Under the pieces are notes generated by a model that made no database searches, was not told where the DNA came from, and saw only the letters and a list, made by a program, of their open reading frames with translations. From assembly GCF_039541235.1 (NCBI RefSeq), contig NZ_BAABFV010000001.1:1178001-1242000 (forward strand): a DNA stretch of 64,000 bases, in the 5' to 3' direction. The position numbers and the translations under genes were made by a program. Every line of letters begins with the position of its first letter. Within the stretch, counting starts at the first letter, position 1. The stretch comes from Kangiella marina. Lineage in GTDB: Bacteria; Pseudomonadota; Gammaproteobacteria; Enterobacterales; Kangiellaceae. This document shows positions 35,670-48,666 of the stretch, one piece after another.

Positions 35670-36026
35670 ATGCTTATTAAATTTATTATCTTTTGTCTTC
35701 TAGCAACGTTTAGCTCTACTCTTTTCGCCTGCGGAGGATCTAGCTCACCAACACTCGAGAATCTTGCTCTAATATTTTCTTCCGGACTTATTCTTAGCTG
35801 CTTTTTCCTTTTGCCACTTGGAATCATCATGCTCAATACCAGCAACTCTTCTCGATACCTATGGCTATTTTCTGTGTACTTCATAACAGCTGTCTTTACC
35901 ATAGTGACGATGTTCTTCGTAACTAATAACATGGCGGCATACTTAAGCTTGCTACTATGCGTGCTTTGTACTCTTCCAACATTCCACACCGCTTATTTGG
36001 CATATAAAAAAAGAGCAGCTAATTAG
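35670..36026 (+). CDS. Small membrane protein with a lipoprotein-like N-terminus
   Basis: A 118-residue protein. The first 21 residues look like a signal peptide ending in a lipobox, LFAC, followed by GGSSSP; three membrane segments follow (about 31-52, 62-82 and 87-108). No family is recognised. The ribosome binding site AAAAAGGAGG, six bases before ATG, is among the strongest in the window and supports real expression. Its last four bases overlap the end of rppH on the other strand. Confidence 0.65.
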
Positions 36027-36694
36027 CTGCTCTCTGACTCTTTATTCACGTTGTTGCGGTAAGGATGTCGGGGTCTTCGACGTCGGTTGCCTTGGCGCTG
36101 CTGACTATTATTTGAGTCGGCGGCTGGCGCCTGCTCCTGCTTTCCTTGTTGTGAGTGACGGGAGCCACCACCTTTTTTATGCTTCTTTTCTGGACGATGA
36201 CTGGACTTACCTTGCATCTGAAAACGAAACATAGCCCCCATCAATTCTGATAGTGCTGAGCGGTAAACATCCCTTTTGAAATTAACTACATTTCGTACCG
36301 GGTACCAATAGTTAACCCAGATAAAACCATCAAACTCCGGATGGTTAGTCGCTTCAAAGTCAATTTTACTTTCATCGCTCACCAGCTGTAACAAAAACCA
36401 CTTCTGTTTTTGGCCAACACACAGTGGTTGGGAGTTCTGGCGAATCAGTCGTTGCGGCAATCGGTACTTGTACCAATGCTGCGTACTCCCTAGAATACGG
36501 ACATCATCTTTTTCAAGGCCGACTTCTTCGTATAGTTCTCGGTACATGGTTTGCTCTGCACTTTCGCCCGGGTGCACGCCCCCTTGCGGGAACTGCCACG
36601 ATGTCTGTCCAAAACGGCGCGTCCAGAGTAACTGGCCTTGGTTGTTACAAATGATGATGCCGACGTTGGCCCTAAAGCCGTCTGCGTCGATCAT
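36023..36694 (-). CDS. rppH: RNA pyrophosphohydrolase
   Basis: Removes pyrophosphate from the 5' end of mRNA, triggering RNase E decay. The Nudix box is [23 protein letters not shown] at about residues 38-60. The N-terminal [17 protein letters not shown] and TSWQFPQGG are as in E. coli RppH, as is the ERR-type LPQRLIRQ region. At 223 residues it is longer than the E. coli enzyme (176); the extra C-terminal tail, from about 165, is rich in H, K, R, Q and N ([20 protein letters not shown]) and probably disordered, perhaps RNA-binding. It is divergent from mutH, the same arrangement as in E. coli. Confidence 0.96.
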
Positions 36695-36763
36695 CTATTC
36701 ATCCAAATCATAAAACTTTGATATCATTGTTCCACATACCGATGCTTTCGACAATAACAAATT

Positions 36764-37435
36764 ATGCAATACGATAACCCGCAAGCCCTACTAGACCACG
36801 CCCAGAGCTTCGCAGGCTCTACCTTAGGCGAGCTTTGTGAGCGCTATAAAGAACAGGTTCCTCAGCAGTTATTGCATAAAAAAGGCTGGGTCGGCCAATT
36901 CATTGAAATGATTCTCGGAGCAACGTCCGGCTCGCTGGCGCAACCAGACTTTCCTGACATTGGTGTTGAACTTAAAACGTTGCCGATTGATGAACAAGGA
37001 CGCCCGCTTGAATCAACCTACGTCAGCGTCGTTCCTTTGATTGATATCCAAGGCTTATGCTGGGAGAACTCTGTCGTCCGACACAAGCTCATGCACGTTC
37101 TTTGGGTGCCCATCGTCGCCAGTCGGGAAATTCCTATTGAGAAACGACAAATTGCAATGCCCTTCCTATGGCAGCCAAGCGTTGAACAAGAGCAGACATT
37201 AAAACAAGACTTCGAGGATATCCTTGATCATGTCTCAATGGGGGGTATTGAACAAGTGGATGCTCGGCTTGGCGAGATATTACAAGTAAGACCAAAAGCC
37301 GCAAACTCGAAAGCATTGACTGATGCCATAGGGCCAGATGGCTCAACCATTAAAACATTGCCCCGAGGTTTTTACTTACGCCCACAGTTTACCAAGCATT
37401 GTTTACAGCAGTACTTTACTGAGACTCAAGTTTAG
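36764..37435 (+). CDS. mutH: DNA mismatch repair endonuclease MutH
   Basis: Nicks the unmethylated GATC strand during methyl-directed mismatch repair with MutS and MutL. The 223-residue protein keeps the catalytic D62, E69 and K71 in DFPDIGVELKTLPID, with the same spacing as E. coli D70/E77/K79. Other family blocks: KGWVGQFIEMILGA and PKAANSKALTDAIG. MutH implies a Dam methylase elsewhere in the genome. The last 20 bases overlap the end of a convergent TPR gene. A broken second copy of mutH lies at 38607-39011. Confidence 0.97.
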   Translation: MQYDNPQALLDHAQSFAGSTLGELCERYKEQVPQQLLHKKGWVGQFIEMILGATSGSLAQPDFPDIGVELKTLPIDEQGRPLESTYVSVVPLIDIQGLCWENSVVRHKLMHVLWVPIVASREIPIEKRQIAMPFLWQPSVEQEQTLKQDFEDILDHVSMGGIEQVDARLGEILQVRPKAANSKALTDAIGPDGSTIKTLPRGFYLRPQFTKHCLQQYFTETQV

Positions 37436-38501
37436 CTAATGCTTCAGCTCGTAATTCCTGTCGAGCTTGATCGTAGGCCAGTTTTCTCTGACGACTTGCT
37501 GTATTGATCTTTTTCTCCAACTCCATATACAGCTGATAGTATTCAATTGCTTTATCTTTATTCTTTAGCTTAGAGTGAGTCTTCGCTAATATTTGGGTAG
37601 CATTTCTCATACGCTTAACATCTCCTGCGTCTTCTGACACTGAGAATGCTTTACTCGCGAACTTTTCCGCTTTGTCATAGCGACCCGTTTCAAAATATAA
37701 GTTTGCCAGACGGATTTCGGTAAGCGACGTTAAAACGGGCCAACCATACTTCTTAACATCGATGTAGCTCTTTTCTAACAACCTTTTTGCTTTAGTAAAT
37801 TCCTTCCTACTCATCGCAATATCAGCTTCAAGATTTGGCAAATGTAGTATGAATAGTCCTTCATTAGCTTTTCGGCAAACCTCATAAGCTTGATTTAGAC
37901 GGTTACCCGCTAATGCATATTCTTCCGCAGAGATCTCGATGAATGCCATCTCGTAATGTGACTGACATTGCTTGGCCAAGTCCTTTGTTTTTATTGAAAG
38001 CTGTAATAATCTTCTTGCATAATCCATCGCATAATCGACCATTCCGGAGTCATTATAAAAACTTACGGCATTCTGCAACACATTGGCTTTATATTCTTCG
38101 TCCTGCATCTTCGGTATCAAGCCTAAAGCTTTATCAAAGTGCATATAGGAGCGTACGTACTTTCCTTGGAGCTGAGAAACCGCAGCAAAAATCGAATGTG
38201 CCCGACCTTTATAGTCAATATCAGCATCGCTGTTAATGATTTTCAACAGTAACCTCTCTGCTTCAGCGAAATCACTCTCCATGGTGGCAGAGTGAGCCAT
38301 CAGCAGCCAATATAAATGCTTCTCACTATCCGAAAACTCAGACTTGTATTTAGATATTTCCTGTAAGGACTGCTTTGTACCTGACAAGTCTTTAATTCTC
38401 TGACTCTCAATTGCTTTGAGATCATTATAATAATCGGCCCCAACCAAGCTTTTGGTCAACAGACATAAAGCAATACCAGATATAAGTTTTTTAACATTCA
38501 T
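37416..38501 (-). CDS. Exported TPR-repeat protein, tandem paralogue 1
   Basis: A 361-residue protein with a signal peptide (MNVKKLISGIALCLLTKSLVGA) and about six tetratricopeptide-like helix pairs; clear ones are LANLYFETGRYDKAEKFASKA and ILAKTHSKLKNKDKAIEYYQLY. It ends with the shared family motif RQRKLAYDQAR. The first 95 residues are almost identical to paralogue 2 (39013-40077); the rest is only moderately similar. Such helical arrays often form the sensor part of exported or membrane signalling proteins such as TPR-GGDEF cyclases, but here the protein ends after the array. Its 3' end overlaps mutH by 20 bases. Function unknown. Confidence 0.8.
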   Translation of the reverse strand: MNVKKLISGIALCLLTKSLVGADYYNDLKAIESQRIKDLSGTKQSLQEISKYKSEFSDSEKHLYWLLMAHSATMESDFAEAERLLLKIINSDADIDYKGRAHSIFAAVSQLQGKYVRSYMHFDKALGLIPKMQDEEYKANVLQNAVSFYNDSGMVDYAMDYARRLLQLSIKTKDLAKQCQSHYEMAFIEISAEEYALAGNRLNQAYEVCRKANEGLFILHLPNLEADIAMSRKEFTKAKRLLEKSYIDVKKYGWPVLTSLTEIRLANLYFETGRYDKAEKFASKAFSVSEDAGDVKRMRNATQILAKTHSKLKNKDKAIEYYQLYMELEKKINTASRQRKLAYDQARQELRAEALAKLESQ

Positions 38502-38504
38502 AGA

Positions 38505-38606
38505 TTACAAGTCTCTCGTATTAGTAACATCAAAGGCAAGCTTTCTTTGACGTAACTTTATATCTCTTTCATTACTTAAGCGTCTATAAATCCGAAAGTA
38601 CTTTAG
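38505..38606 (-). pseudogene. Remnant of the 3' end of a TPR paralogue-3 gene
   Basis: Minus-strand codons read KYFRIYRRLSNE, then R-D-I-K-L-RQRKLAFDVTNTRDL and stop, matching the last 33 codons of paralogue 3 at 40081-40180 with only a few changes. There is no upstream part: at 38606 the sequence switches to mutH. This is the right end of a tandem duplication. Confidence 0.85.
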
Positions 38607-39011
38607 ATGCTCAAAGCTTTGCAGGATCGATCTTGGGCGAACTCTGTGGTTAGTCATAAGCTAATACACGTGCTTTGGATGCCCAACGTCGCTAGCCGTG
38701 AGCTCCCTATTGAACAACGACAAATTGCCACGCCCTTCCTGTGGCAACCCACTTTCGAGCAGGAGCAGACGTTAAAAAAGGACTTTGAGGATGTTCTTGA
38801 TCAGGTCTCCATGGGGAATGTAGAGCAAGTCGATGCTCGGCTTGGTGAAATACTACAGGTAAGACCTAAAGCTGCAAACTCAAAAGCACTAACGGATGCG
38901 ATTGGGACGGACGGTTCCACTATTAAAACGTTACGCAAATCTTTTTACTTACGTCCACAATTTGCCAAGCAGTGCTTACAACAACAGTTTAGTTACCTAA
39001 GTCCAACTTAG
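38607..39011 (+). pseudogene. Truncated second copy of mutH without an active site
   Basis: The open frame of 134 codons matches the last 117 residues of MutH from NSVV through PKAANSKALTDAIG to the end, roughly 80 percent identical. Upstream, bases 38608-38646 match mutH from about codon 13 (AQSFAGS...LGELC) but in another frame; the intervening mutH segment, about 230 bases encoding the catalytic D/E/K residues, is deleted at short matching sequences (GAGCTTTGTG and GAACTCTGTC). The product, if made, could not cut DNA. It was copied along with the neighbouring TPR gene. Confidence 0.9.
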
Positions 39012-39012
39012 A

Positions 39013-40077
39013 TTACTGCTCTACTCTAAGCCACTGTCTCGCCTGGTCATAGGATAACTTTCTTTGACGGCTTGAAGCGCTTAATCTTTTCTCAAGCTCC
39101 ATGTACATTAGAAAGTATTTGATAGCCTTATCTTTTTCGCCGAGTTCAGAATATATATTTGCCAAGATTTCAGTAGCACCTTTGGCACGCTTGATGTCGC
39201 CTATCTCCTCTGAAGCTTTCAATGCTTTTAAAGCTAGCTTTTCTGCCTCTTTAAACTCATCTATTTTAGAGTACAAGTTAGCTAACTTAATTTCAGTGCT
39301 TGCACTGAGAATCTTCCAACCATACTTTTTGACTTCAGTATAATTTTCTTCTAATAACTTTCTTGCTCTTGAGGTATCGCCTTTCTGTATTGCTAAATCA
39401 GCCCTTACATTTGGCAAGTGCAATAAAAATAACGTTTCATTCGCTTTGTTACATATATTATCTGTTTTAGTTAATCTATCTTCTGCTAATTCATATTTAT
39501 TTGCTGATAACTCGATAAACATCATCTCAAAGTGGGCTTGGCACTGATTCGATAAATCTTTTCTTTGGACTCCAAGCTTCAGTAATCGTCTTGCATGATC
39601 CATCGCATAATCAAACATGCCTGAGTCATTATAAAAACTTACAGCATTTTGCAGAATATTCGCCTTATACTCTTCATTGTCCATTCTTGGGACATGTCTT
39701 AATGCTTTGTCTAAATGCAGATAAGATCTTACGTACTCCCCTTGAAGCTGTAATACCGCAGCAAAAACCGAATGAGCCCGGCCTTTATAGTCAATATCAG
39801 CATCACTGTTAATGATTTTCAGCAGTAACCTCTCTGCTTCAGCGAAATCACTCTCCATGGTGGCAGAGTGAGCCATCAGCAGCCAATATAAATGCTTCTC
39901 ACTATCCGAAAACTCAGACTTGTATTTAGATATTTCCTGTAAGGACTGCTTTGTACCTGACAAGTCTTTAATTCTCTGACTCTCAATTGCTTTGAGATCA
40001 TTATAATAACCTGCACCAATCAAGCCTTTGGTCAACAGATATAAAGCAATACCAGATATAAGTTTTTTAACATTCAT
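39013..40077 (-). CDS. Exported TPR-repeat protein, tandem paralogue 2
   Basis: A 354-residue exported helical-repeat protein. Signal peptide MNVKKLISGIALYLLTKGLI, then TPR-like helix pairs including LANLYSKIDEFKEAEKLALKA and ILANIYSELGEKDKAIKYF, ending with RQRKLSYDQAR. The DNA for residues 1-95 differs from paralogue 1 at only about a dozen bases in 290, while the rest is strongly diverged, which points to gene conversion or a recent partial copy. It starts three bases after the stop of paralogue 3, so it is part of the same transcript. It lacks an obvious ribosome binding site. Confidence 0.8.
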   Translation of the reverse strand: MNVKKLISGIALYLLTKGLIGAGYYNDLKAIESQRIKDLSGTKQSLQEISKYKSEFSDSEKHLYWLLMAHSATMESDFAEAERLLLKIINSDADIDYKGRAHSVFAAVLQLQGEYVRSYLHLDKALRHVPRMDNEEYKANILQNAVSFYNDSGMFDYAMDHARRLLKLGVQRKDLSNQCQAHFEMMFIELSANKYELAEDRLTKTDNICNKANETLFLLHLPNVRADLAIQKGDTSRARKLLEENYTEVKKYGWKILSASTEIKLANLYSKIDEFKEAEKLALKALKASEEIGDIKRAKGATEILANIYSELGEKDKAIKYFLMYMELEKRLSASSRQRKLSYDQARQWLRVEQ

Positions 40078-40080
40078 AGA

Positions 40081-41124
40081 TTACAAGCCCCTCGTATTAG
40101 CAGTATCAAAGGCAAGCTTTCTTTGTCGTAACTTTATTTCTCTTTCATTACTTAAGCGTCTATAAATCCGAAAGTACTTTAGGGCTTTATCATTTTCTTC
40201 TAGGGCTGAATAAACTTCAGCCAAAATTCCCGAAGCATTTTGCAATCTCTTTTTATCTTTCCTATAAGAGGACATATTAAAGCCTTCAAGTGCATACGCC
40301 TCGGCCTCCTCGTAACTTTCAGTTTTGAGTAATTGCTTTGAGAGGTTAATGTATACAATATAGGCTCCCATATCCCATCCATACTCTTCAGCTTTTGGAA
40401 TCAAATTTCTTAATCTGGCAATAGCTGATGCAACGTTCCCTTGCTCCCCTTCTATTCTTGCAATCTCATCATCTATTCCAAGTAAAAACATCGTCATCTT
40501 TGCTTTTTCACAATACTTTATGCTTTTTAGTAATCTATCTAAAGCTAAATCATAAAACCCAACCTTCCTCTCAATGGATGCTAGCTCATAATTAGCAACA
40601 CAACGATCCGTATTTTTCCTTGTTTTTTCTGCTTCTAGCTTTAATTGGCGGCTACTTTCAAGTGCATACTCATATAGCTCCGCATCTTTATATATAGATG
40701 AAATATTTTGAAGAATCCGAACCCTGTAATCATTATCATTTACTTTAGGTAATAACTCATTGGCTTTTTTTATGTATATAAATGAATCAATGGCTTTCCC
40801 TAAAGTCCAAGCTGAAGCTGCCGCTATCGAATATGCTCTTGCTTGAATATTCGAGTTGTTTGTTGATTTTGCCAAATCACTTAATAAAGTCTTAGCCTCA
40901 TTATGTTTACCTTCAATATAATAAAAGTGACCCTTGATAAGTTGGTACAGATCTCTCTCTTTTTGACTCATTGACTCGCTTTTCTCACCGAGCTTAGTAA
41001 GAGACTGCTTTAGCTCTACTAGACTTTTCAGATTGCTGGATTCGATCCTTTTGAGCTGTATATAGAAGCTCGCAGACAGAGCGCTAGAAAATATAAGGAT
41101 AAAAAGAGAAACTGTTAATTTCAT
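40081..41124 (-). CDS. Exported TPR-repeat protein, tandem paralogue 3
   Basis: A 347-residue protein from the ATG at 41124, which gives a clean signal peptide (MKLTVSLFILIFSSALSASF); the frame can be extended to a TTG at 41148. The helical repeats include AYALEGFNMSSYRKDKKRL and ILAEVYSALEENDKALKYFRIY, and the C-terminal family motif is RQRKLAFDTAN. It is diverged from paralogues 1 and 2 throughout. A broken copy of its last 33 codons lies at 38505-38606. Close spacing to both neighbours (30 and 3 bases) shows one operon. Function unknown. Confidence 0.78.
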   Translation of the reverse strand: MKLTVSLFILIFSSALSASFYIQLKRIESSNLKSLVELKQSLTKLGEKSESMSQKERDLYQLIKGHFYYIEGKHNEAKTLLSDLAKSTNNSNIQARAYSIAAASAWTLGKAIDSFIYIKKANELLPKVNDNDYRVRILQNISSIYKDAELYEYALESSRQLKLEAEKTRKNTDRCVANYELASIERKVGFYDLALDRLLKSIKYCEKAKMTMFLLGIDDEIARIEGEQGNVASAIARLRNLIPKAEEYGWDMGAYIVYINLSKQLLKTESYEEAEAYALEGFNMSSYRKDKKRLQNASGILAEVYSALEENDKALKYFRIYRRLSNEREIKLRQRKLAFDTANTRGL

Positions 41125-41155
41125 GATTAATATGTCTTTTGACTCCAAAGCGAGC

Positions 41156-42220
41156 CTACTCTAACTTTCCGCGCCTGGCCATATCAAAAGCCATCTTTCT
41201 TTGTCTTATCCTAGTCTTGTTCGCATCGTTCAACTCCATATACTCCTTATAGAACTTTATAGCTTCTTTATCATTTTCTAATTCTGTATATATTTGTGCT
41301 AATAAACGACTTGCAACTTCCATTCGTTTTCTATCATTTGTCTTTTTAGCAATCTTATAAGCTTTTTTTGCATGCTCTTCTGCTTTTTTAAAGTTTGCTT
41401 CACTTAGTTCTAATCTTGCTAGCATTGAGTGTGATGCTGAAATAAGTACATCCCACCCATAATCTATCATTTTAGGATGTAGCTCGTTTGCTATTTCTCT
41501 TGCTTTATCTAATTTTCCTGTTTCAATTCGTAACTCTAATATTGAGTAACTTACACCCAAAAGTAAAATTTTATGTTGCGCTTTCTCACAGTACGACTTG
41601 GCGCTTAACAATCTATTCTCTGCCATTTGATATTTTTTTGTCAGCAGTTCAATTGAAGCCAACTCATAAGTGGCATCACAAATTTTAGAAGGGTCCTTCA
41701 ATTGATTTGCTAAAACTAGAGCTCTACGCCCATAATCTAAAGAAAAATCAATTAAATCAGCATCTTTATAGAGCCCCACCGCATTAATTAAGATTCTTGA
41801 TTTGTATTCTTGTTTTTTTATTTTATCTAGTAGGTCTAACGATTTATCTAGCGAAACAAAGGCCTCTACACTATGCCCTTTATAATGATTTATTGATGCA
41901 GTTAGAAGATGCTTAATTCCTTCTCTTCCTGCACTGCTAGTTTCCAGCTTATCCAGATGGCCTAATAGCTCTAAACTTTGATCTGGTTTGTTTTGCAAAA
42001 GAAGGATATGAGCTTTTAACAAATTAAAGAAATAGATCTCTTCGCTATTAAATTCATTTTTATTTTTAGATAAAGACTCTAACTTTTGAGCAGATTCTGA
42101 TACATTGTTGGTTAAGCTTTCTTCGATTTTCTTAAGTTCAATGAAAGTAGTAGTTTCATTTGCAAATACTGAACTTACTACTAGACTATAAACAACAAAA
42201 ACATTAAGTAGCTTGATCAA
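41156..42220 (-). CDS. Exported TPR-repeat protein, tandem paralogue 4
   Basis: A 354-residue protein starting with TTG at 42220, eight bases after a strong AGGAGAG site. Signal peptide MIKLLNVFVVYSLVVSSVFA; helical repeats such as MLARLELSEANFKKAEEHA and LLAQIYTELENDKEAIKFYKEY; C-terminal motif RQRKMAFDMARRG. It is the first TPR gene after the borosin-type methyltransferase, 56 bases downstream on the same strand. It is A/T-richer than the housekeeping genes around the cluster, as are its siblings and the borosin pair. Confidence 0.78.
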   Translation of the reverse strand: MIKLLNVFVVYSLVVSSVFANETTTFIELKKIEESLTNNVSESAQKLESLSKNKNEFNSEEIYFFNLLKAHILLLQNKPDQSLELLGHLDKLETSSAGREGIKHLLTASINHYKGHSVEAFVSLDKSLDLLDKIKKQEYKSRILINAVGLYKDADLIDFSLDYGRRALVLANQLKDPSKICDATYELASIELLTKKYQMAENRLLSAKSYCEKAQHKILLLGVSYSILELRIETGKLDKAREIANELHPKMIDYGWDVLISASHSMLARLELSEANFKKAEEHAKKAYKIAKKTNDRKRMEVASRLLAQIYTELENDKEAIKFYKEYMELNDANKTRIRQRKMAFDMARRGKLE

Positions 42221-42276
42221 CTAAATACTCTCCTGAAATTTTCCGATAACAACTTCATTACTCCTATACTCTTTTG

Positions 42277-43059
42277 TTACTTCGAACTTTTCTGAGCCAA
42301 CTCCTCAGCTAATTCTCTATCAAAACTTATTGCATCTACAGGCGGTATGACAAGCGTGGTATGCAACTTCAGCTCTACTTTATGAACATCTTTCAAAGCT
42401 ACTTTCTCACTCCTGACTTTATCTATAGGGAGAAAAGCAGCTTCATATAATATTACTTCATGCTCACTATCATACCATTGTTTTAAATGCTCAGTCAGAT
42501 GCTTTACTTTCTCTGGATCTGTCTTAAAGGTCTTAGCTGTGGTATCTCCTGCTAATGCAATCTGCCATAATAGTAAGTAACTGTATTTATTAGGCTTATG
42601 ACCATAATAAAGAAACTGCGTAGCTTCATAACTTTGCACACCACACGAGCCAGGGTCAATGAGTAGATCTGAGTACAAACATGCCTCTGCTGAAATCCCA
42701 GGCTCCATATACGCAAAATAACCTTCATTTTTTGCTCTTTTTATGGATTCATGTGGTACCCAAGAAAATACCCCTGCATGCCCATAAAAGGCTCCACAAA
42801 CGCTTCTTCCTTTCCGTACTTCTGCAAGTATCGCTTCTATCATTTCTTCATATGTTTCTTTTCTGTATTTTCCTTCACCATAATAAGGTTGCAAACTTAT
42901 ATGCTCCTTACTAACAGTTTCAAGCCAGCTCTCAGCTATTGGATGAGGCATTAATGAAAACACAACATCTGCATCCTCTATTATTTTTTTCGTTCTTACA
43001 GAAAGGTGGCCTGCTAGTAGTATTCCTGTGCTAACAGCTATATAGGTTCCTTTAGTCAT
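42277..43059 (-). CDS. Borosin-type peptide backbone alpha-N-methyltransferase (tetrapyrrole methylase fold)
   Basis: A 260-residue SAM methyltransferase with the tetrapyrrole (corrin/porphyrin) methylase fold. It is not a cobalamin enzyme: Y60, R66 and Y70 in YYGEGKYRKETYEEM repeat the 6- and 4-residue spacing of the catalytic Y66/R72/Y76 of the omphalotin enzyme OphMA, and YGHAGVF (92-98) and YMEPGISAEACLYSDLLID match borosin methyltransferases. It is free-standing, as in split (SonM-like) systems of Shewanella, not fused to its substrate. Its start overlaps the stop of the 75-residue precursor gene as TAATG, so the two are translated together. Expected to methylate backbone amides in the precursor's C-terminal tail. 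Confidence 0.88.
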   Translation of the reverse strand: MTKGTYIAVSTGILLAGHLSVRTKKIIEDADVVFSLMPHPIAESWLETVSKEHISLQPYYGEGKYRKETYEEMIEAILAEVRKGRSVCGAFYGHAGVFSWVPHESIKRAKNEGYFAYMEPGISAEACLYSDLLIDPGSCGVQSYEATQFLYYGHKPNKYSYLLLWQIALAGDTTAKTFKTDPEKVKHLTEHLKQWYDSEHEVILYEAAFLPIDKVRSEKVALKDVHKVELKLHTTLVIPPVDAISFDRELAEELAQKSSK

Positions 43060-43286
43060 TATTCTTTATCATCGCTTTTCATCATTGTAACCATAAAAAT
43101 GCAAACGGCTTTAGTACCTAAAAGTTTCTCCACCTCTTTTGAATCTCCTTTCATTACTGCTGTAATTTCTTTATCTTCTAAACCAAAGTCTTTCATGACT
43201 GCCTCTGGGTTTTCTACATAAGATTGATTGAGCTTTGGGTCTTCTGAAAGTTTAATGACAAACTCTTCTAACTTCTTCTTTGACAT
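43059..43286 (-). CDS. Split borosin RiPP precursor peptide (SonA-like)
   Basis: A 75-residue protein. Residues 1-55 form a small helical recognition domain: LEEFVIKLSEDPKLNQSYV, then ENPEAVMKDFGLEDKEITAVM and KGD. The N-P-E-A-V-M and I-x-A-V-M-x-G-D phrases are those of SonA-type precursors as I recall them. The C-terminal tail from about residue 58 (TKAVCIFMVTMMKSDDKE) has a run of hydrophobic residues, the likely core for backbone methylation. AAAGGA precedes the start. The next gene is the methyltransferase, overlapping by one base. No protease or exporter gene of the usual kind is adjacent. Confidence 0.87.
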   Translation of the reverse strand: MSKKKLEEFVIKLSEDPKLNQSYVENPEAVMKDFGLEDKEITAVMKGDSKEVEKLLGTKAVCIFMVTMMKSDDKE

Positions 43287-43354
43287 AGCCTTGTTCCTTT
43301 ACCCTAAATACATGCGCTTCAAGCCAAACGCTCCATTTATAGCTTACGATTACG

Positions 43355-43380
43355 AAAAAAGCCAGCAAACGCTGGCTTTT
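43355..43380 (-). terminator. Rho-independent terminator of gcvP
   Basis: On the minus strand AAAAGCCAGCGTTTGCTGGC continues into TTTTTT: a 9-10-bp stem with a short loop and T tract, 28-53 bases after the gcvP stop. It insulates the borosin operon from gcv transcription. Confidence 0.85.
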
Positions 43381-43407
43381 GAGTCAAGTAACTGGCTCTC
43401 AACTTAG

Positions 43408-46272
43408 TTACTCAGCATACGTTTCTGTCGCTGGGCAACTGCACATTAAGTTTCTGTCGCCGAACACGTCATCAATTCGGTTTGTGGTTGGCCAGAATTT
43501 ACTTAAAATCGTGGCTTCCGACGGGTAAATCGCTTCCGCTATCGTGTAGGGCTTATCCCAGTCACGTAAATCGGCTTGAGTGTGCGGTGCATTAACCAGT
43601 GGGTTGTTGTCTTTATCCCACTCACCACTTGCGACTTTCTTAACTTCCTGACGGATGCGGATCATGGCATCTACAAAACGATCCAGCTCATACTTTGACT
43701 CACTCTCCGTCGGTTCAATCATAAAGGTTCCAGCGACTGGGAAACTCATTGTAGGCGCATGGAAACCGTAATCCATCAAGCGCTTAGCAAGGTCAACCTC
43801 ACTAATACCCGTTTCATTTTTAATGTCACGTAAATCAATGATGCACTCGTGAGCGACTTTATCGTTACGACCGACATACAATACAGGGTAATGCTCCGAA
43901 AGCTTATTTTTCAAGTAGTTAGCATTTAATAACGCGACTTCCGTTGATTTGCGTAAACCCACTTGACCTAGCATTTTGATGTAAGCCCACGAAATTGGAA
44001 GAATCATTCCGCTGCCGTATGGTGCTGCTGATACCGCATTGTCACGAGCTTCTACACTGTGGATTTTGCGTACCGAGTGGCCTGATACAAACGGCGCTAA
44101 GTGCGACTTCACACCAATAGGCCCCATGCCAGGGCCACCACCGCCATGAGGAATGGCGAACGTTTTGTGTAGGTTTAGGTGTGAGACGTCTGAGCCAATA
44201 TCGCCCGGACGTGAAATACCGACCTGAGCATTCATGTTAGCGCCATCCATGTAAACCTGACCGCCGTTGTCATGGATGATGTCACAAATGTCTTTAATCT
44301 CTTCTTCATAAACGCCGTGTGTCGAAGGATAGGTCACCATCAGTGCAGCTAAGTTGTCTTTCATCTCTTCAGCTTTAGCTTTCAGATCGTCAACATCAAC
44401 GTTACCGTTGTCATCACACTTTGTAATCACCACTTTCATGCCCGCCATTTGCGCTGAAGCGGGATTAGTACCATGCGCGGAGCTTGGGATCAGGCAGATA
44501 TTACGGTGTCCTTCGCCTTGGCTTTCATGGTATTTCTTAATCGCGATAAGACCCGCGTACTCGCCTTGTGCACCTGAGTTAGGCTGCATCGATACAAAGT
44601 CGTAACCGGTAATTTCCACTAAGTCCGCTTCCAGTTCCTTGATCATCTTGATGTAACCGTAGGTTTGGTCTTCTGGCGCAAACGGATGAATGCATGCGAA
44701 TTTTGGCCAGGTTACTGGCATCATCTCGCTGGTCGCATTCAATTTCATGGTACACGAACCTAGAGGGATCATGCCGTGCACTAATGAAAAGTCTTTAGTT
44801 TCCAAACGCTTGATATAACGCAACATATCGGTTTCAGAATAGTAGTCGTTAAATGTTGGGTGCGTTAGGAAATCCGACTGGCGAACTAACTGTTCTGGAA
44901 TCGATGACTGAGCTTCATTATCTAAACCAAATATGTCTGACTCTGCGCCAGTAATAACTTCGATTAATTGCTCAATATCCGCTTGGCTTTTCGCTTCATC
45001 GATAGAAAAGCTGATTAAATCACCATCATAATGCAGGTTCACGAGTGCTTCTTTGGCACGATCTTGAATAGCCTCTACATCCGAAGCACGGAAAGTGACT
45101 GTATCAAACCAGTGATCATTCACCACTTCCAAGCCAGCATTGACCACCGCTGATGCAGCAATAGACGCATAACGATTAATACGGTTAGCAATCGTCGTTA
45201 AGCCTTTTTTGCCATGGTAGACCGCATAAAAACTGGCAATATTGGCGAGTAATACCTGAGCTGTACAGATATTAGACGTCGCCTTCTCACGGCGGATGTG
45301 CTGTTCGCGGGTTTGCATCGCCATACGCAACGCATTATTACCACGAGTATCTTTTGATACCCCAATAATACGGCCAGGCAACGAGCGCTTGAATGAGTCG
45401 CGTGTCGCGAAGAATGCAGCATGCGGGCCACCAAAACCCATCGGAACGCCAAAACGTTGCGCAGAGCCAAATACCACATCAGCACCCATCTCGCCGGGAG
45501 ATTTCAGCATCACCAAGCTCATAATATCCGCTGCGACACACGCCACGGCTTTTTTGTCGTGTAGCGCCGCGATAATACTTTCTAAGTCAACAATATCGCC
45601 ATGGACATTGGTGTATGACAATAAAGCACCAAACACATCATGGTTAGCAGCGTCTTCAATTGGCCCAATGATTAAATCCCAGCCGTAATGCTCAGCGCGT
45701 GTCTTTACCACATCAATCGTTTGTGGGAATGTTTTTTCGTCAACAAAGAAGGTATTGCACTTTTTATTCTTCGACGAACGCTTGGCTAAGCCCATGGCTT
45801 CAGCAGCGGCTGTCGCTTCATCCAGCAATGAGGCACTGGCCAGCTCCATTCCGGTCAAATCCATCGTCATTTGCTGAAAGTTTAAAATAGCTTCCAAACG
45901 ACCTTGTGCGATCTCAGGCTGGTAAGGTGTGTAAGCCGTGTACCATGCTGGATTTTCCAAAACATTGCGCTGAATAACTGCCGGCGTGACTGTGTCGTAA
46001 TAGCCCATACCGATGTATGACTTTGCGACAATATTTTCATCCGCCAATGACTGCAAATAATCCAAGGTTTCACGCTCTGAACGTGACGCTTCAACGCCAA
46101 TCGGTTCCTTAACTTGGATTTTGTGCGGAACAGCCTTTTCCACCAAATCGTCTAACGACGACAAGCCCAACTCAGTGAGCATTTCCTGAATCTCGTTCTC
46201 ACGAGGGCCTAAATGGCGGCGGATAAAATCATCCGACTGCTGTAATTCTTGCAAGCTTGTTTTATCAGTCAT
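43408..46272 (-). CDS. gcvP: Glycine dehydrogenase (decarboxylating), P-protein
   Basis: The PLP-dependent decarboxylase of the glycine cleavage system; passes the aminomethyl group to lipoyl-GcvH. At 954 residues it is the single-chain (fused P1-P2) type. The PLP lysine is in [22 protein letters not shown], and the N-terminal [17 protein letters not shown], the [19 protein letters not shown] block and the C-terminal [17 protein letters not shown] are characteristic. It is last in gcvT-gcvH-gcvP, separated from gcvH by a 369-base structured spacer. Confidence 0.98.
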
Positions 46273-46327
46273 ACTGGTCGCGACCTACTTATTTCACTTA
46301 TGCCGATCTGCATAAACTGTTGAATCG

Positions 46328-46351
46328 AAAAAGCCTCGAACAACTCGAGGC
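46328..46351 (-). terminator. Terminator-like hairpin in the gcvH-gcvP spacer
   Basis: On the minus strand GCCTCGA GTTGT TCGAGGC is followed by TTTTT: a 7-bp perfect stem with a T tract, 56 bases before the gcvP start. It may end the gcvTH transcript or act as an attenuator for gcvP. Confidence 0.75.
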
Positions 46352-46383
46352 CCTTAAAGCGTGCCACTGCTTATATAGTGGCC

Positions 46384-46412
46384 GATGGGTTACGCCTCTC
46401 GGCTAACCCATC
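46384..46412. other. Strong GAGA-capped hairpin in the gcvP leader
   Basis: On the minus strand GATGGGTTAGCC, loop GAGA, then GGC, one bulged G and TAACCCATC: a 12-bp stem with a GNRA-type loop and a single bulge. It lies between the gcvH gene and the terminator-like hairpin. No known riboswitch consensus is recognised. Confidence 0.6.
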
Positions 46413-46429
46413 CTATTTATTTAATGCTC

Positions 46430-46640
46430 AGCTCAGAGCATTTAGCTCCAAATCTTAAAACTTTAGAAAACTAACCAACTAAACTTTTATTGCGTTCAGA
46501 GCATTTAACTTCAAATCTGAAAATTTAGAAAAACGTCTTTAGGCGAGGCGAAGTCTTCAGTGAAGAAAAGGAGTTTACATAAGTAAATGACTTTTCTGAG
46601 CTAAGGCTTCAACAACGCATAATGGCGTTTTAATAATTTT
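46430..46640. repeat. Structured repeat region between gcvH and gcvP
   Basis: The segment has an imperfect direct repeat of about 40 bases (CAGAGCATTTAGCTCCAAAT near 46432 and CAGAGCATTTAACTTCAAAT near 46497) and, at 46545-46612, a long imperfect palindrome centred on GTTTACATAAGTAAATGAC with flanking arms GAAGTCTTCAGTGAAGAAAAG and CTTTTCTGAGCTAAGGCTTC. A small ACGC/GCGT hairpin ends it. No protein-coding frame is seen. The GGAGTTTAC...GTAAATGA core recurs at 33139. Confidence 0.6.
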
Positions 46641-46641
46641 T

Positions 46642-47028
46642 CTATTCGTCAGCGATTTCTTCAGCGTACTGCTCTGCCGACAGTAGCGAATCCAAATCAC
46701 CCGAATCAATTTTCATCTTGAACATCCAGCCATCACCATAGGGATCGCTATTGATTAATTCTGGTGAATCTTCCAGCTCTTCGTTGACTTCGGTGATTGT
46801 GCCCGCTAATGGCGCATAGATATCTGACGCAGCTTTTACTGACTCAACCACTGCGATTTCGTCTTCTACATCAACTTCGCTATCCACTTCTGGCGCTTCT
46901 ACAAACACCACATCACCAAGCAACTCTTGCGCGTGCTCAGTAATACCAACGGTTACAATGCCGTCACCTTCATCACGAATCCACTCATGGCTCGATACAT
47001 ATTTTAATTCAGCTGGAATTTGGCTCAT
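46642..47028 (-). CDS. gcvH: Glycine cleavage system H protein
   Basis: The lipoyl carrier of the glycine cleavage system. The lipoylated lysine is in [18 protein letters not shown] (residue about 64), and the N-terminal [33 protein letters not shown] is typical. The ATG at 47028, with AGGAAGAG upstream, gives 128 residues; the longer frame to 47055 adds nine residues without homology. It lies 142 bases downstream of gcvT. Confidence 0.97.
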
Positions 47029-47170
47029 TGTCTCTTCCTCTATAGCCCCCGACACCCATTGAGGTGGCTATCAGTTTAAAAATTAATCGTATTGTATATC
47101 AAAGTTAAACGCTGCCCAAGCGTTTATCCTCGGGCAACAAAGGTCTTTAAGTCCTAGCTTTCGGCCAACA

Positions 47171-48259
47171 TTAAATCAATGACTTACCTTTACGCACAAA
47201 GCTTGGCTTGACCACTTTTGCTGGAATTTGCTTCTTACGAACTTGCACTAGTACATCTTCGGCATCAACAGAACGCTGCACGCGTGCCATCGCAATGCTT
47301 TTACCCGTTGTTGGCGACATAGTGCCAGAGGTAACAACGCCAACAACCTCATCATTCAGCACCACTTCTTGACCTTCACGCATAATGCCTTTGCCGTCCA
47401 GTACCAAGCCAATCAACTTACGTGCAACACCGTTGGCTTTCTGCTCTGTTAGCGCTTTACGCCCCACAAAGTCACGGCCTTCAGGCTCCCACGCAATGGT
47501 CCAGCCCATGTTTGCTTCAAGCGGCGACACCGTTTCATCCATATCGTGACCATACAGGTTCATGCCAGCTTCAAGGCGCAAGGTATCGCGCGCCGCTAAG
47601 CCGCATGGCTTCACACCTGCATTAATCAACGCATTCCACAATTCAATGGCTTTATTGTCTGGAACTAGAATTTCGTACCCGTCTTCGCCGGTATACCCTG
47701 TACGAGCAACGAACAGATCGCCTGCGTAAGCGGCCATGAATGGCTTTAATTCTGACACTGCTGCTTTTTGTTCATCACTAAAGGTCGCCTGCGCTTTTTC
47801 TATCGCTTCAGGCCCTTGAACAGCAATAATCGCCAAATCTGAACGCTCCTCCACGGAGACATCAAACTGCTGGGCAACGTTCTCTAACCACGCCAGATCT
47901 TTCTCGCGAGTCGCCGCATTCACGACCACGCGATAATGGGCATCATTCAAGTAATAAACGATAAGATCGTCAATCACGCCACCATCTTCATGTAACATGC
48001 CCGTATATAGCGCTTTGCCAGACTCTTGAAGCTTCGCCACGTCGTTTGCTAATAAATACTGTAGATACGGCTTCGCTTCGCTGCCTTTAATCTCGACGAT
48101 GGTCATATGCGATACGTCGAACATACCCGCCGCTTCACGCACTGCAGCATGTTCATCAAGTTGTGAACCATAGTTTAACGGCATATCCCAGCCGCCAAAA
48201 TCGACAATGCGTGCCTCAGCATCAACATGAGCTTGATATAAAGGTGTTTTGCTACCCAT
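47171..48259 (-). CDS. gcvT: Aminomethyltransferase, glycine cleavage T protein
   Basis: Transfers the methylene group from aminomethyl-lipoyl-GcvH to tetrahydrofolate and releases ammonia. The 362-residue protein has [31 protein letters not shown] (folate-binding N-terminal block), [33 protein letters not shown] with the catalytic aspartate region, and the C-terminal barrel. First gene of gcvTHP. AAGGAA precedes the ATG. A good promoter is present upstream; no glycine riboswitch is seen. Confidence 0.97.
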
Positions 48260-48281
48260 AACGACACCGTTCCTTAAACAA

Positions 48282-48333
48282 TTGAGTGGTAATAATGGCG
48301 CATGATTATACAGGGGTTCTTAAGACAAAAGAA
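48282..48333 (-). promoter_or_regulatory. Candidate sigma-70 promoter of gcvT
   Basis: On the minus strand a consensus TATAAT (48305-48310) stands 45 bases before the gcvT start. Seventeen bases upstream is TTCTTT, a weak -35. The -35 to -10 region overlaps an inverted repeat, GGGTTCTT/AAGAACCC (about 48314-48337), a possible operator. Confidence 0.55.
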
Positions 48334-48477
48334 CCCGAAAAGGTAGAGTCAGACCAGTAAAACACTATCCCAAATAGCTTTTGATTATATTCAGAAAAAT
48401 ATCCTTACACTTAAGTGCTTGAAGAGATTGGTGGCCATCTCCATAATTCATCCGTATTTCAAACACAAGGATTGGGA

Positions 48478-48666
48478 ATGTTGAACTTGTTAAAATCTAT
48501 CGGAAAGGAAATACTTTTCTTACTTGCTGCGATTGTTTCTTTTACTGTTGGTTATCTAGCAGGAAATATTCTATCCGGCTTTCTCAGCCTTATGGCTTTT
48601 AGTCTAATCGGAAAGTTCATCGGTAAGAAGCTAGCCGAAAGCCAAGTAAACTCTACACAAGCTTAA
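48478..48666 (+). CDS. Small hydrophobic membrane protein, unknown
   Basis: A 62-residue protein starting at ATG 48478 with AAGGATTGGGA just upstream; the frame is open back to a GTG at 48415. Residues 8-50 are hydrophobic and glycine-containing (LFLLAAIVSFTVGYLAGNIL, then LSLMAFSLIG), giving two membrane helices, followed by a charged tail. No family is recognised. It overlaps the 3' end of the convergent iron permease gene by four bases. Confidence 0.55.
   Translation: MLNLLKSIGKEILFLLAAIVSFTVGYLAGNILSGFLSLMAFSLIGKFIGKKLAESQVNSTQA

Follow-up and report, generated by a model that had tools for sequence, protein, structure and literature searches.

What kind of pathway is encoded by the small gene pair borA-borM, and what might its product be for? 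The pair lies in a 64,000-nt stretch of the Kangiella marina genome (the window) and was described in an initial annotation as a split borosin system, made up of a precursor peptide of 75 residues (borA, 43059-43286) and a backbone N-methyltransferase of 260 residues (borM, 42277-43059) encoded on the minus strand and overlapping at TAATG. These coordinates and lengths were confirmed; Y60, R66, Y70 and the YGHAGVF motif are present in BorM, as are NPEAVM, ITAVMKGD and AVCIFMVTMM in BorA. The Y-6-R-4-Y spacing of BorM equals that of OphMA as quoted, with the OphMA numbering, in the annotation, and the titles of PDB entries name R72A and Y76F mutants of OphMA.

BorM is 47% identical to SonM over the aligned enzyme (E = 1.3e-71 among PDB sequences), and all 25 PDB sequences that match it at E ≤0.01 are SonM or fused borosin enzymes, with the SonM chains first. 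Residues Y60, R66, Y70 and Y92 of BorM align with SonM Y58, R67, Y71 and Y93, which have been assayed by mutation (PMC8429565), consistent with membership in the SonM kind of enzyme; the Y60-R66 loop of BorM is shorter, SonM having three more residues between its Y and R. The BorA leader matches SonA (E = 6.7e-10, phmmer against PDB sequences); both matches are far from chance. In the AF2 model of BorA (mean pLDDT 76.5), helices are predicted at residues 3-15, 17-25, 27-34, 38-46 and 49-56, followed by a tail helix. SonA chains take the top three places among the Foldseek matches of this model (48-52 columns at rmsd 0.7, with E only ~0.02), and its first 29 matches are all chains of SonM-SonA entries (rmsd mostly ~1 Å, E 0.02-0.28). 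Judging from the predicted model and the homology, the leader is a five-helix borosin binding domain (BBD). Two other precursors and the BorA leader match the NCBIfam model IniB_NTERM below its cut-off (BorA, E 4.5e-7, 29.7 of 40 bits; the others, 26.6 and 18.6 bits), and the borosin leader fold may be common to IniB N-terminal domains.

The annotation had named placement in a cobalamin or siroheme methylase clade as the outcome that would count against it. Pfam assigns BorM to the superfamily PF00590, which would also accommodate an ordinary tetrapyrrole methylase beside an unrelated small ORF, but that explanation is extremely improbable and was rejected on sequence grounds: the 25 PDB matches are borosin enzymes without exception, the small ORF has the homology and predicted fold of a borosin precursor, and at E up to 1 NCBIfam shows no family of cobalamin or siroheme enzymes, its only listed match being YabN at 23.3 of 525 bits. 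The methyltransferase and the BBD-bearing precursor are encoded by separate, adjacent genes, a 260-aa enzyme and a 75-aa peptide, which is the type IV arrangement and not that of the fused borosins of types I-III. Type IV split borosins are already known (PMC8429565, PMC11285071), and SonM/SonA of Shewanella oneidensis (PMC8429565; PDB 7LTC and others) shares with the window pair the separate genes, the active-site residues, the five-helix leader and the C-terminal hydrophobic core. The window pair differs from SonM/SonA in its core, TKAVCIFMVTMM, with Cys, Phe and Met, and in the TPR-only genes that follow it. By homology, then, BorA/BorM is a type IV split borosin, of a known kind with a new core (TKAVCIFMVTMM), and BorM very probably methylates backbone amides of the BorA tail.

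The predicted core at BorA residues 58-75, TKAVCIFMVTMMKSDDKE, differs from that of SonA, as the annotation had proposed. SonA is methylated at L63 and I65 (PMC8429565), positions that would fall on M65 and T67 of BorA if the ungapped alignment is continued into the tail. Five sister genomes retain TKAVCI or AKAVCI in the core and vary in the residues beyond it; the cores of two further loci (L117 and L145) diverge more.

The initial annotation had reported no adjacent protease or exporter, which fits the neighbours found: four TPR proteins on one side and, on the other, upstream of borA, a gene that we take to be gcvP. Its identification of a split borosin thus stands, while its account of the locus was incomplete, leaving out the downstream TPR array and a second cassette elsewhere in the genome. 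The array, T1-T4 (37416-42220; Table 1), is on the same strand as borM and downstream of it. T1 has a TTG start 56 nt past borM, and gaps of 7, 3 and 511 nt separate T1 from T2, T2 from T3 and T3 from T4. T1, T2 and the T3/T4 pair are mutually 31-35% identical, and T3 and T4 are the copies of a ~1.57-kb tandem duplication (direct repeats spaced 1573-1576) whose unit also included the 3' portion of mutH as well as the T2 end. The operon order would be borA-borM-T1-T2-T3, with the duplicate T4 behind. The hairpin and T run between gcvP and borA is absent from the terminator scan output; no known RNA family reached its gathering score in 36000-48500, and a sigma-70 scan gave 14 sites, where shuffled sequence averaged 17.1.

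Table 1. Features of the borosin locus and its TPR array (window positions)
Feature	Position	Strand	Basis
BorA residues 1-57, predicted borosin-binding-domain leader, five predicted helices	43116..43286	-	phmmer to SonA, AF2 model
BorA residues 58-75, predicted core TKAVCIFMVTMMKSDDKE	43062..43115	-	ungapped alignment to SonA
BorM, 260 aa, putative alpha-N-methyltransferase of the SonM kind	42277..43059	-	PF00590 59.5 bits, SonM E 1.3e-71, active-site alignment
T1, 354 aa, TPR-only, hydrophobic N-terminal segment, Cys181 and Cys211	41156..42220	-	TPR_12 38.1 bits, AF2, hydropathy
T2, 355 aa, TPR-only paralogue	40081..41148	-	31% identical to T1
T3, 354 aa, TPR-only paralogue	39013..40077	-	70.5% identical to T4
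T4, 361 aa, TPR-only paralogue	37416..38501	-	tandem-duplication copy with T3
Truncated MutH ORF	38607-39011	+	duplication remnant between T4 and T3
50-codon ORF ending in the T2 tail	38505-38657	-	duplication remnant between T4 and T3
Hairpin and T run AAAAGCCAGCGTTTGCTGGCTTTTTT	43355..43380	-	between gcvP and borA; read by eye

A relative of the T proteins is encoded in a further complete borosin cassette, the second in this genome (L006:8706-11460; C1, about 463.7-466.5 kb), which is ordered borA, TPR-GGDEF, borM and has a precursor tail of GGGEYAVVVHNVKEHNL. T1-T4 align with the TPR half of its TPR-GGDEF protein, TG2 (L006:9519-11237), at E values from 5e-11 (T4) to only 0.01 (T1). A profile of the T proteins matched, in this genome, T1-T4, an adjoining fragment, the TG2 sensor and part of one 761-codon frame elsewhere. 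Like the borosin-linked TPR-GGDEF (TG) proteins, T1-T4 contain the TPR sensor region with both of the cysteines described below, but neither the later transmembrane segment nor the GGDEF domain of those proteins; T1-T4 gave no GGDEF match at E up to 1 and are not TPR-GGDEF cyclases.

In named genomes, scanning yielded 122 confirmed SonM relatives, of which the best 80 were analysed as loci. By profiles built from these same 80 loci, a BBD precursor is near borM in 79/80, a TPR-GGDEF ORF follows borM in the same orientation, at most 4.5 kb downstream, in 78/80, TPR-GGDEF is upstream of borM in 0/80, and any GGDEF is upstream in 4/80. At the two loci without a TPR-GGDEF ORF, the contigs stop 373 and 823 bp past borM. 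In a clustering of ORFs of at least 110 aa, borM and TPR-GGDEF each recurred at 78 loci spread over 16-17 genus labels (unnamed MAGs counted among these), and the next family reached 13 loci and 6 labels. Among the genera represented are Shewanella, Rheinheimera, Alkalimonas, Lysobacter, Rhodanobacter, Colwellia, Marinicella and Povalibacter. Since the window's own genome contains 23 GGDEF domains in 2.51 Mb, chance adjacency of borM and GGDEF is unlikely. Gene order differs among loci (with M for borM, A for borA and TG or T for the TPR protein, M-A-TG, A-TG-M, A-M-T and M-A-T), with the TPR partner retained. Because the 80 loci were chosen by similarity to the query, and because three far class members with borM (L177-L179, ORF starts read by eye) have no TPR-GGDEF-like neighbour, we restrict the link to the SonM-like clade. 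borM itself was found in 38/40 genomes of Kangiellaceae and in 4/184 genomes drawn from the class (the window's own genome included in both counts), and a plasmid collection contained 12 records with a BorM-like match, all below 60% identity.

To our knowledge, no function has been assigned to the SonM clade. The association of borosins with GGDEF is not new, as a GGDEF domain is named in the Figure 1 legend on borosin architectures in PMC11395268. That paper was the only one found to pair borosin with GGDEF, and none was found to pair borosin with diguanylate cyclase; neither TPR nor GGDEF appears in the main text of PMC8429565. No earlier description of TPR-only arrays or of the cysteine pair was found in the borosin-GGDEF and borosin-diguanylate cyclase literature searched. 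A related arrangement is RcbA/RcbB of Vibrio vulnificus (PMC12282931), in which a TPR protein is co-encoded with a TPR-GGDEF enzyme and controls it via TPR contacts; RcbA differs from the T proteins in having an extra C-terminal region, and the word "methyltransferase" is absent from the main text of that paper.

The TPR domains of the two kinds of borosin-linked protein have a cysteine pair in common. Cys181 (T1 numbering) is present in 147/147 aligned TPR domains and Cys211 in 146/147, the one exception being a gap; this set comprises 33 T and 114 TG domains, loci with tandem TG genes contributing more than one. The cysteines are kept even though T1 is only 14-20% identical to the aligned TG sensors. 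As controls, 8 GGDEF proteins of the window's genus that are not beside a borosin were taken from searches for GGDEF and TG2 relatives, and both cysteines are present in 0/8 of these. In seven of the eight the corresponding stretch resembles TPR and lacks both cysteines; in the other (L166) it does not resemble TPR, and there the first position is a gap and the second column holds a Cys. In the T1 model, Cys181 and Cys211 are located in consecutive helices (177-193 and 197-214), and from these modelled helices alone a disulfide between them would be plausible in a periplasmic protein. By hydropathy, a later hydrophobic segment occurs in 27/27 TG and 0/33 T proteins, and an N-terminal hydrophobic segment in 22/27 TG and 26/33 T proteins, being present in T1 and T2 and absent from T3 and T4. 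T1 and T2 therefore look like secreted proteins without an anchor.

To map the two kinds of locus, 40 longer stretches were read along with the window and the second cassette; 18 other genomes of the genus supplied 33 of them, and the remaining 7 came from 7 further family members. Fifteen TPR-only loci were found, one per genome, each with 1-4 T copies and all on the borM strand (15/15), along with 27 TPR-GGDEF loci, of which 20 are in the genus. All 15 TPR-only loci belong to the window's genus, one of whose genomes (G027) was covered without full flanks, and none is found among the 80 named loci (0/80). In a tree of 73 BorM proteins (57 from TG loci, 15 from T loci and 1 with neither on its strand), the TPR-only loci form one clade (SH-aLRT 99), and the 33 T proteins make up one side of a branch in an unrooted tree of 71 TPR domains (SH-aLRT 99); both are quick trees in which long branches were flagged. 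Since the tree has no inferred root, a loss of the GGDEF part is the natural direction of change, though an unproven one. The T proteins could have been partners that need TG2, a notion rejected as a general rule since G020 and G021 carry T loci and no close TG2 relative was found in either (G022 was outside this search).

The AF2 model of T1 (pLDDT 93.2, pTM 0.86) is helical throughout, with no separate effector domain apparent. Eukaryotic LGN complexes lead its Foldseek matches, and among bacterial proteins Rap with peptides comes first, followed by NprR; the model superposes on Rap chains with TM 0.57-0.68 and rmsd of about 5-10 Å (one at 11.5) and on NprR with TM 0.60. A sequence profile likewise puts LGN first (E 1.9e-13) and extends to RapF (1.5e-6). 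Because TPR superhelices are generic and bind many things, this likeness supports only a peptide-binding shape for modelled T1. With Rap and NprR of the RRNPP family the T proteins would share a TPR superhelix and a small cognate peptide, a resemblance of fold and not a claim of sequence membership. RRNPP receptors are cytoplasmic, bind unmodified peptides and often carry an HTH or phosphatase-type effector part, whereas the T proteins look periplasmic and their peptide is predicted to be N-methylated.

Sequence divergence gives a mixed picture of core-receptor co-variation. Across five orthologous loci, T1 has the lowest identity (45-49%), against 64-68% for BorM, 50-69% for the core and 82-86% for the leader. 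Of the 80 loci, 72 had all parts after filters, and a regular expression sorted these into 28 with SonA-like precursors and 44 others, the core columns of the latter being poorly aligned. Among the 28 SonA-like loci, core and TPR distances correlate at 0.37 after correction for BorM (0/300 permutations), above the core-GGDEF value of 0.14 (28/300). The 44 other loci, with their poorly aligned core columns, show no core-TPR co-variation (0.07, 43/300) and a slight core-GGDEF signal (0.15, 14/300). Over all 72 loci, core-GGDEF given TPR (0.46) exceeds core-TPR given GGDEF (0.34). Leader-TPR co-variation is stronger than core-TPR and is present in both sets (partial correlations 0.55 and 0.51, 0/300 each), and in the 44 other loci the leader also tracks GGDEF (0.31, 0/300).

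A mechanism that would join these elements begins with BorM binding the helical leader of BorA and N-methylating backbone amides of the hydrophobic tail, probably, by homology with SonA, around M65-T67. The tail, released or still attached, would be the ligand of the co-encoded TPR proteins. The T proteins would then represent the TG sensor domain without its membrane anchor and GGDEF domain, serving in the periplasm as soluble binding proteins, whether receptor, co-receptor or sink, and acting in place of, or beside, direct c-di-GMP signalling in this lineage. That the methylated peptide is recognised by the co-encoded TPR proteins is somewhat less likely than not. Counting against it, no exporter or protease is linked at the locus to bring a cytoplasmic peptide to a periplasmic protein. 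No C39 peptidase was found in the window's genome, 8/14 control genomes being positive in the same search; no pepsin-like protease (PF00026) was found there either, a weak result, as 0/14 controls were positive. More tentatively, and possible rather than probable, the split borosins of the SonM clade could be Gram-negative peptide pheromones, N-methylated, reaching the periplasm and read by a TPR receptor with the cysteine pair that is usually fused to a diguanylate cyclase; in the window's genus one cassette would have shed the cyclase and expanded the receptor into soluble tandem copies. If so, Rap-like logic would have been moved to the periplasm and split borosins would gain a function. 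As a near-constant sensor partner with a two-cysteine signature, the TPR protein is a candidate target of the peptide that can be tested directly, and binding and co-crystal work could draw on the anchorless proteins of the TPR-only loci. Were binding shown, a new kind of peptide signalling would be defined.

Three other explanations also take the pair to be a borosin and assign the TPR proteins a different part. The T proteins might confer self-protection by capturing, in the periplasm, a methylated peptide that is toxic or membrane-active, with the TPR-GGDEF form reporting on it; a copy number of 1 to 4 and fast divergence would suit a sink or immunity protein. This is nevertheless unlikely, as the commonest partner bears a cyclase domain, and the retention of TKAVCI or AKAVCI in the sister genomes and of borM across nearly all the family genomes resembles a housekeeping signal more than a weapon. 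The leader-TPR co-variation, the strongest of the distances compared, and the lack of an evident exporter or protease beside the window locus would suit TPR proteins that are maturation or transport factors, holding or exporting the leader-bearing precursor rather than sensing the product. Such a role is rather improbable, given that T1 and T2 look secreted and anchorless while BorA has no signal peptide (by eye), and that a GGDEF output is unexpected in a pure maturation factor.

BorA could also remain an intact, modified intracellular protein whose folding or contact with BorM is adjusted by methylation, the TPR-GGDEF linkage reflecting shared regulation only. The lack of an evident protease or exporter at the locus and of a C39 peptidase match in the genome agrees with this, as does the statement in PMC8429565 that, as of 2021, no split borosin pathway had been tied to a final product. 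We regard this explanation as quite improbable, because the linkage holds in 78/80 loci and persists when gene order changes, which points to a functional connection. A bacterial borosin product has reportedly been described in a later paper. Recognition of the methylated peptide by the TPR proteins remains the reading preferred here.

Other precursor types were seen among the surveyed loci. A second widespread core type has V/I-C, a short hydrophobic stretch, P-A-E or the like and a long tail rich in Asp and Glu, and occurs in several genera (precursors of L014, L025, L062, L070 and others); no methylation data for this type are known to us. In 14/80 loci (L064, L041, L043, L051 (a fragment), L062, L070, L074, L076, L078, L080, L082, L084, L086 and L087), borM has upstream of it, in the same orientation, a gene for a pepsin-like aspartic protease (PF00026, 62 bits for the L064 copy at L064:5545-7254), and five loci of the family (L104, L108, L111, L112 and L116) also have one. 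The precursors at 14/14 of these PF00026 loci are acidic-tailed (12 by pattern, L043 and L051 by eye) and none is SonA-like, and the pepsin-like proteases could be the missing leader protease of the acidic-core split borosins. Pepsin homologues of Shewanella are known as shewasins, and the account of them in PMC4814920 names neither a methyltransferase nor an operon. In three genomes of the window's genus (L136, L138 and L140), a second borM and a short precursor adjoin the TPR-GGDEF cassette, and the tail of this short precursor contains the near-repeat KLLLLEP, KLLLLTP.
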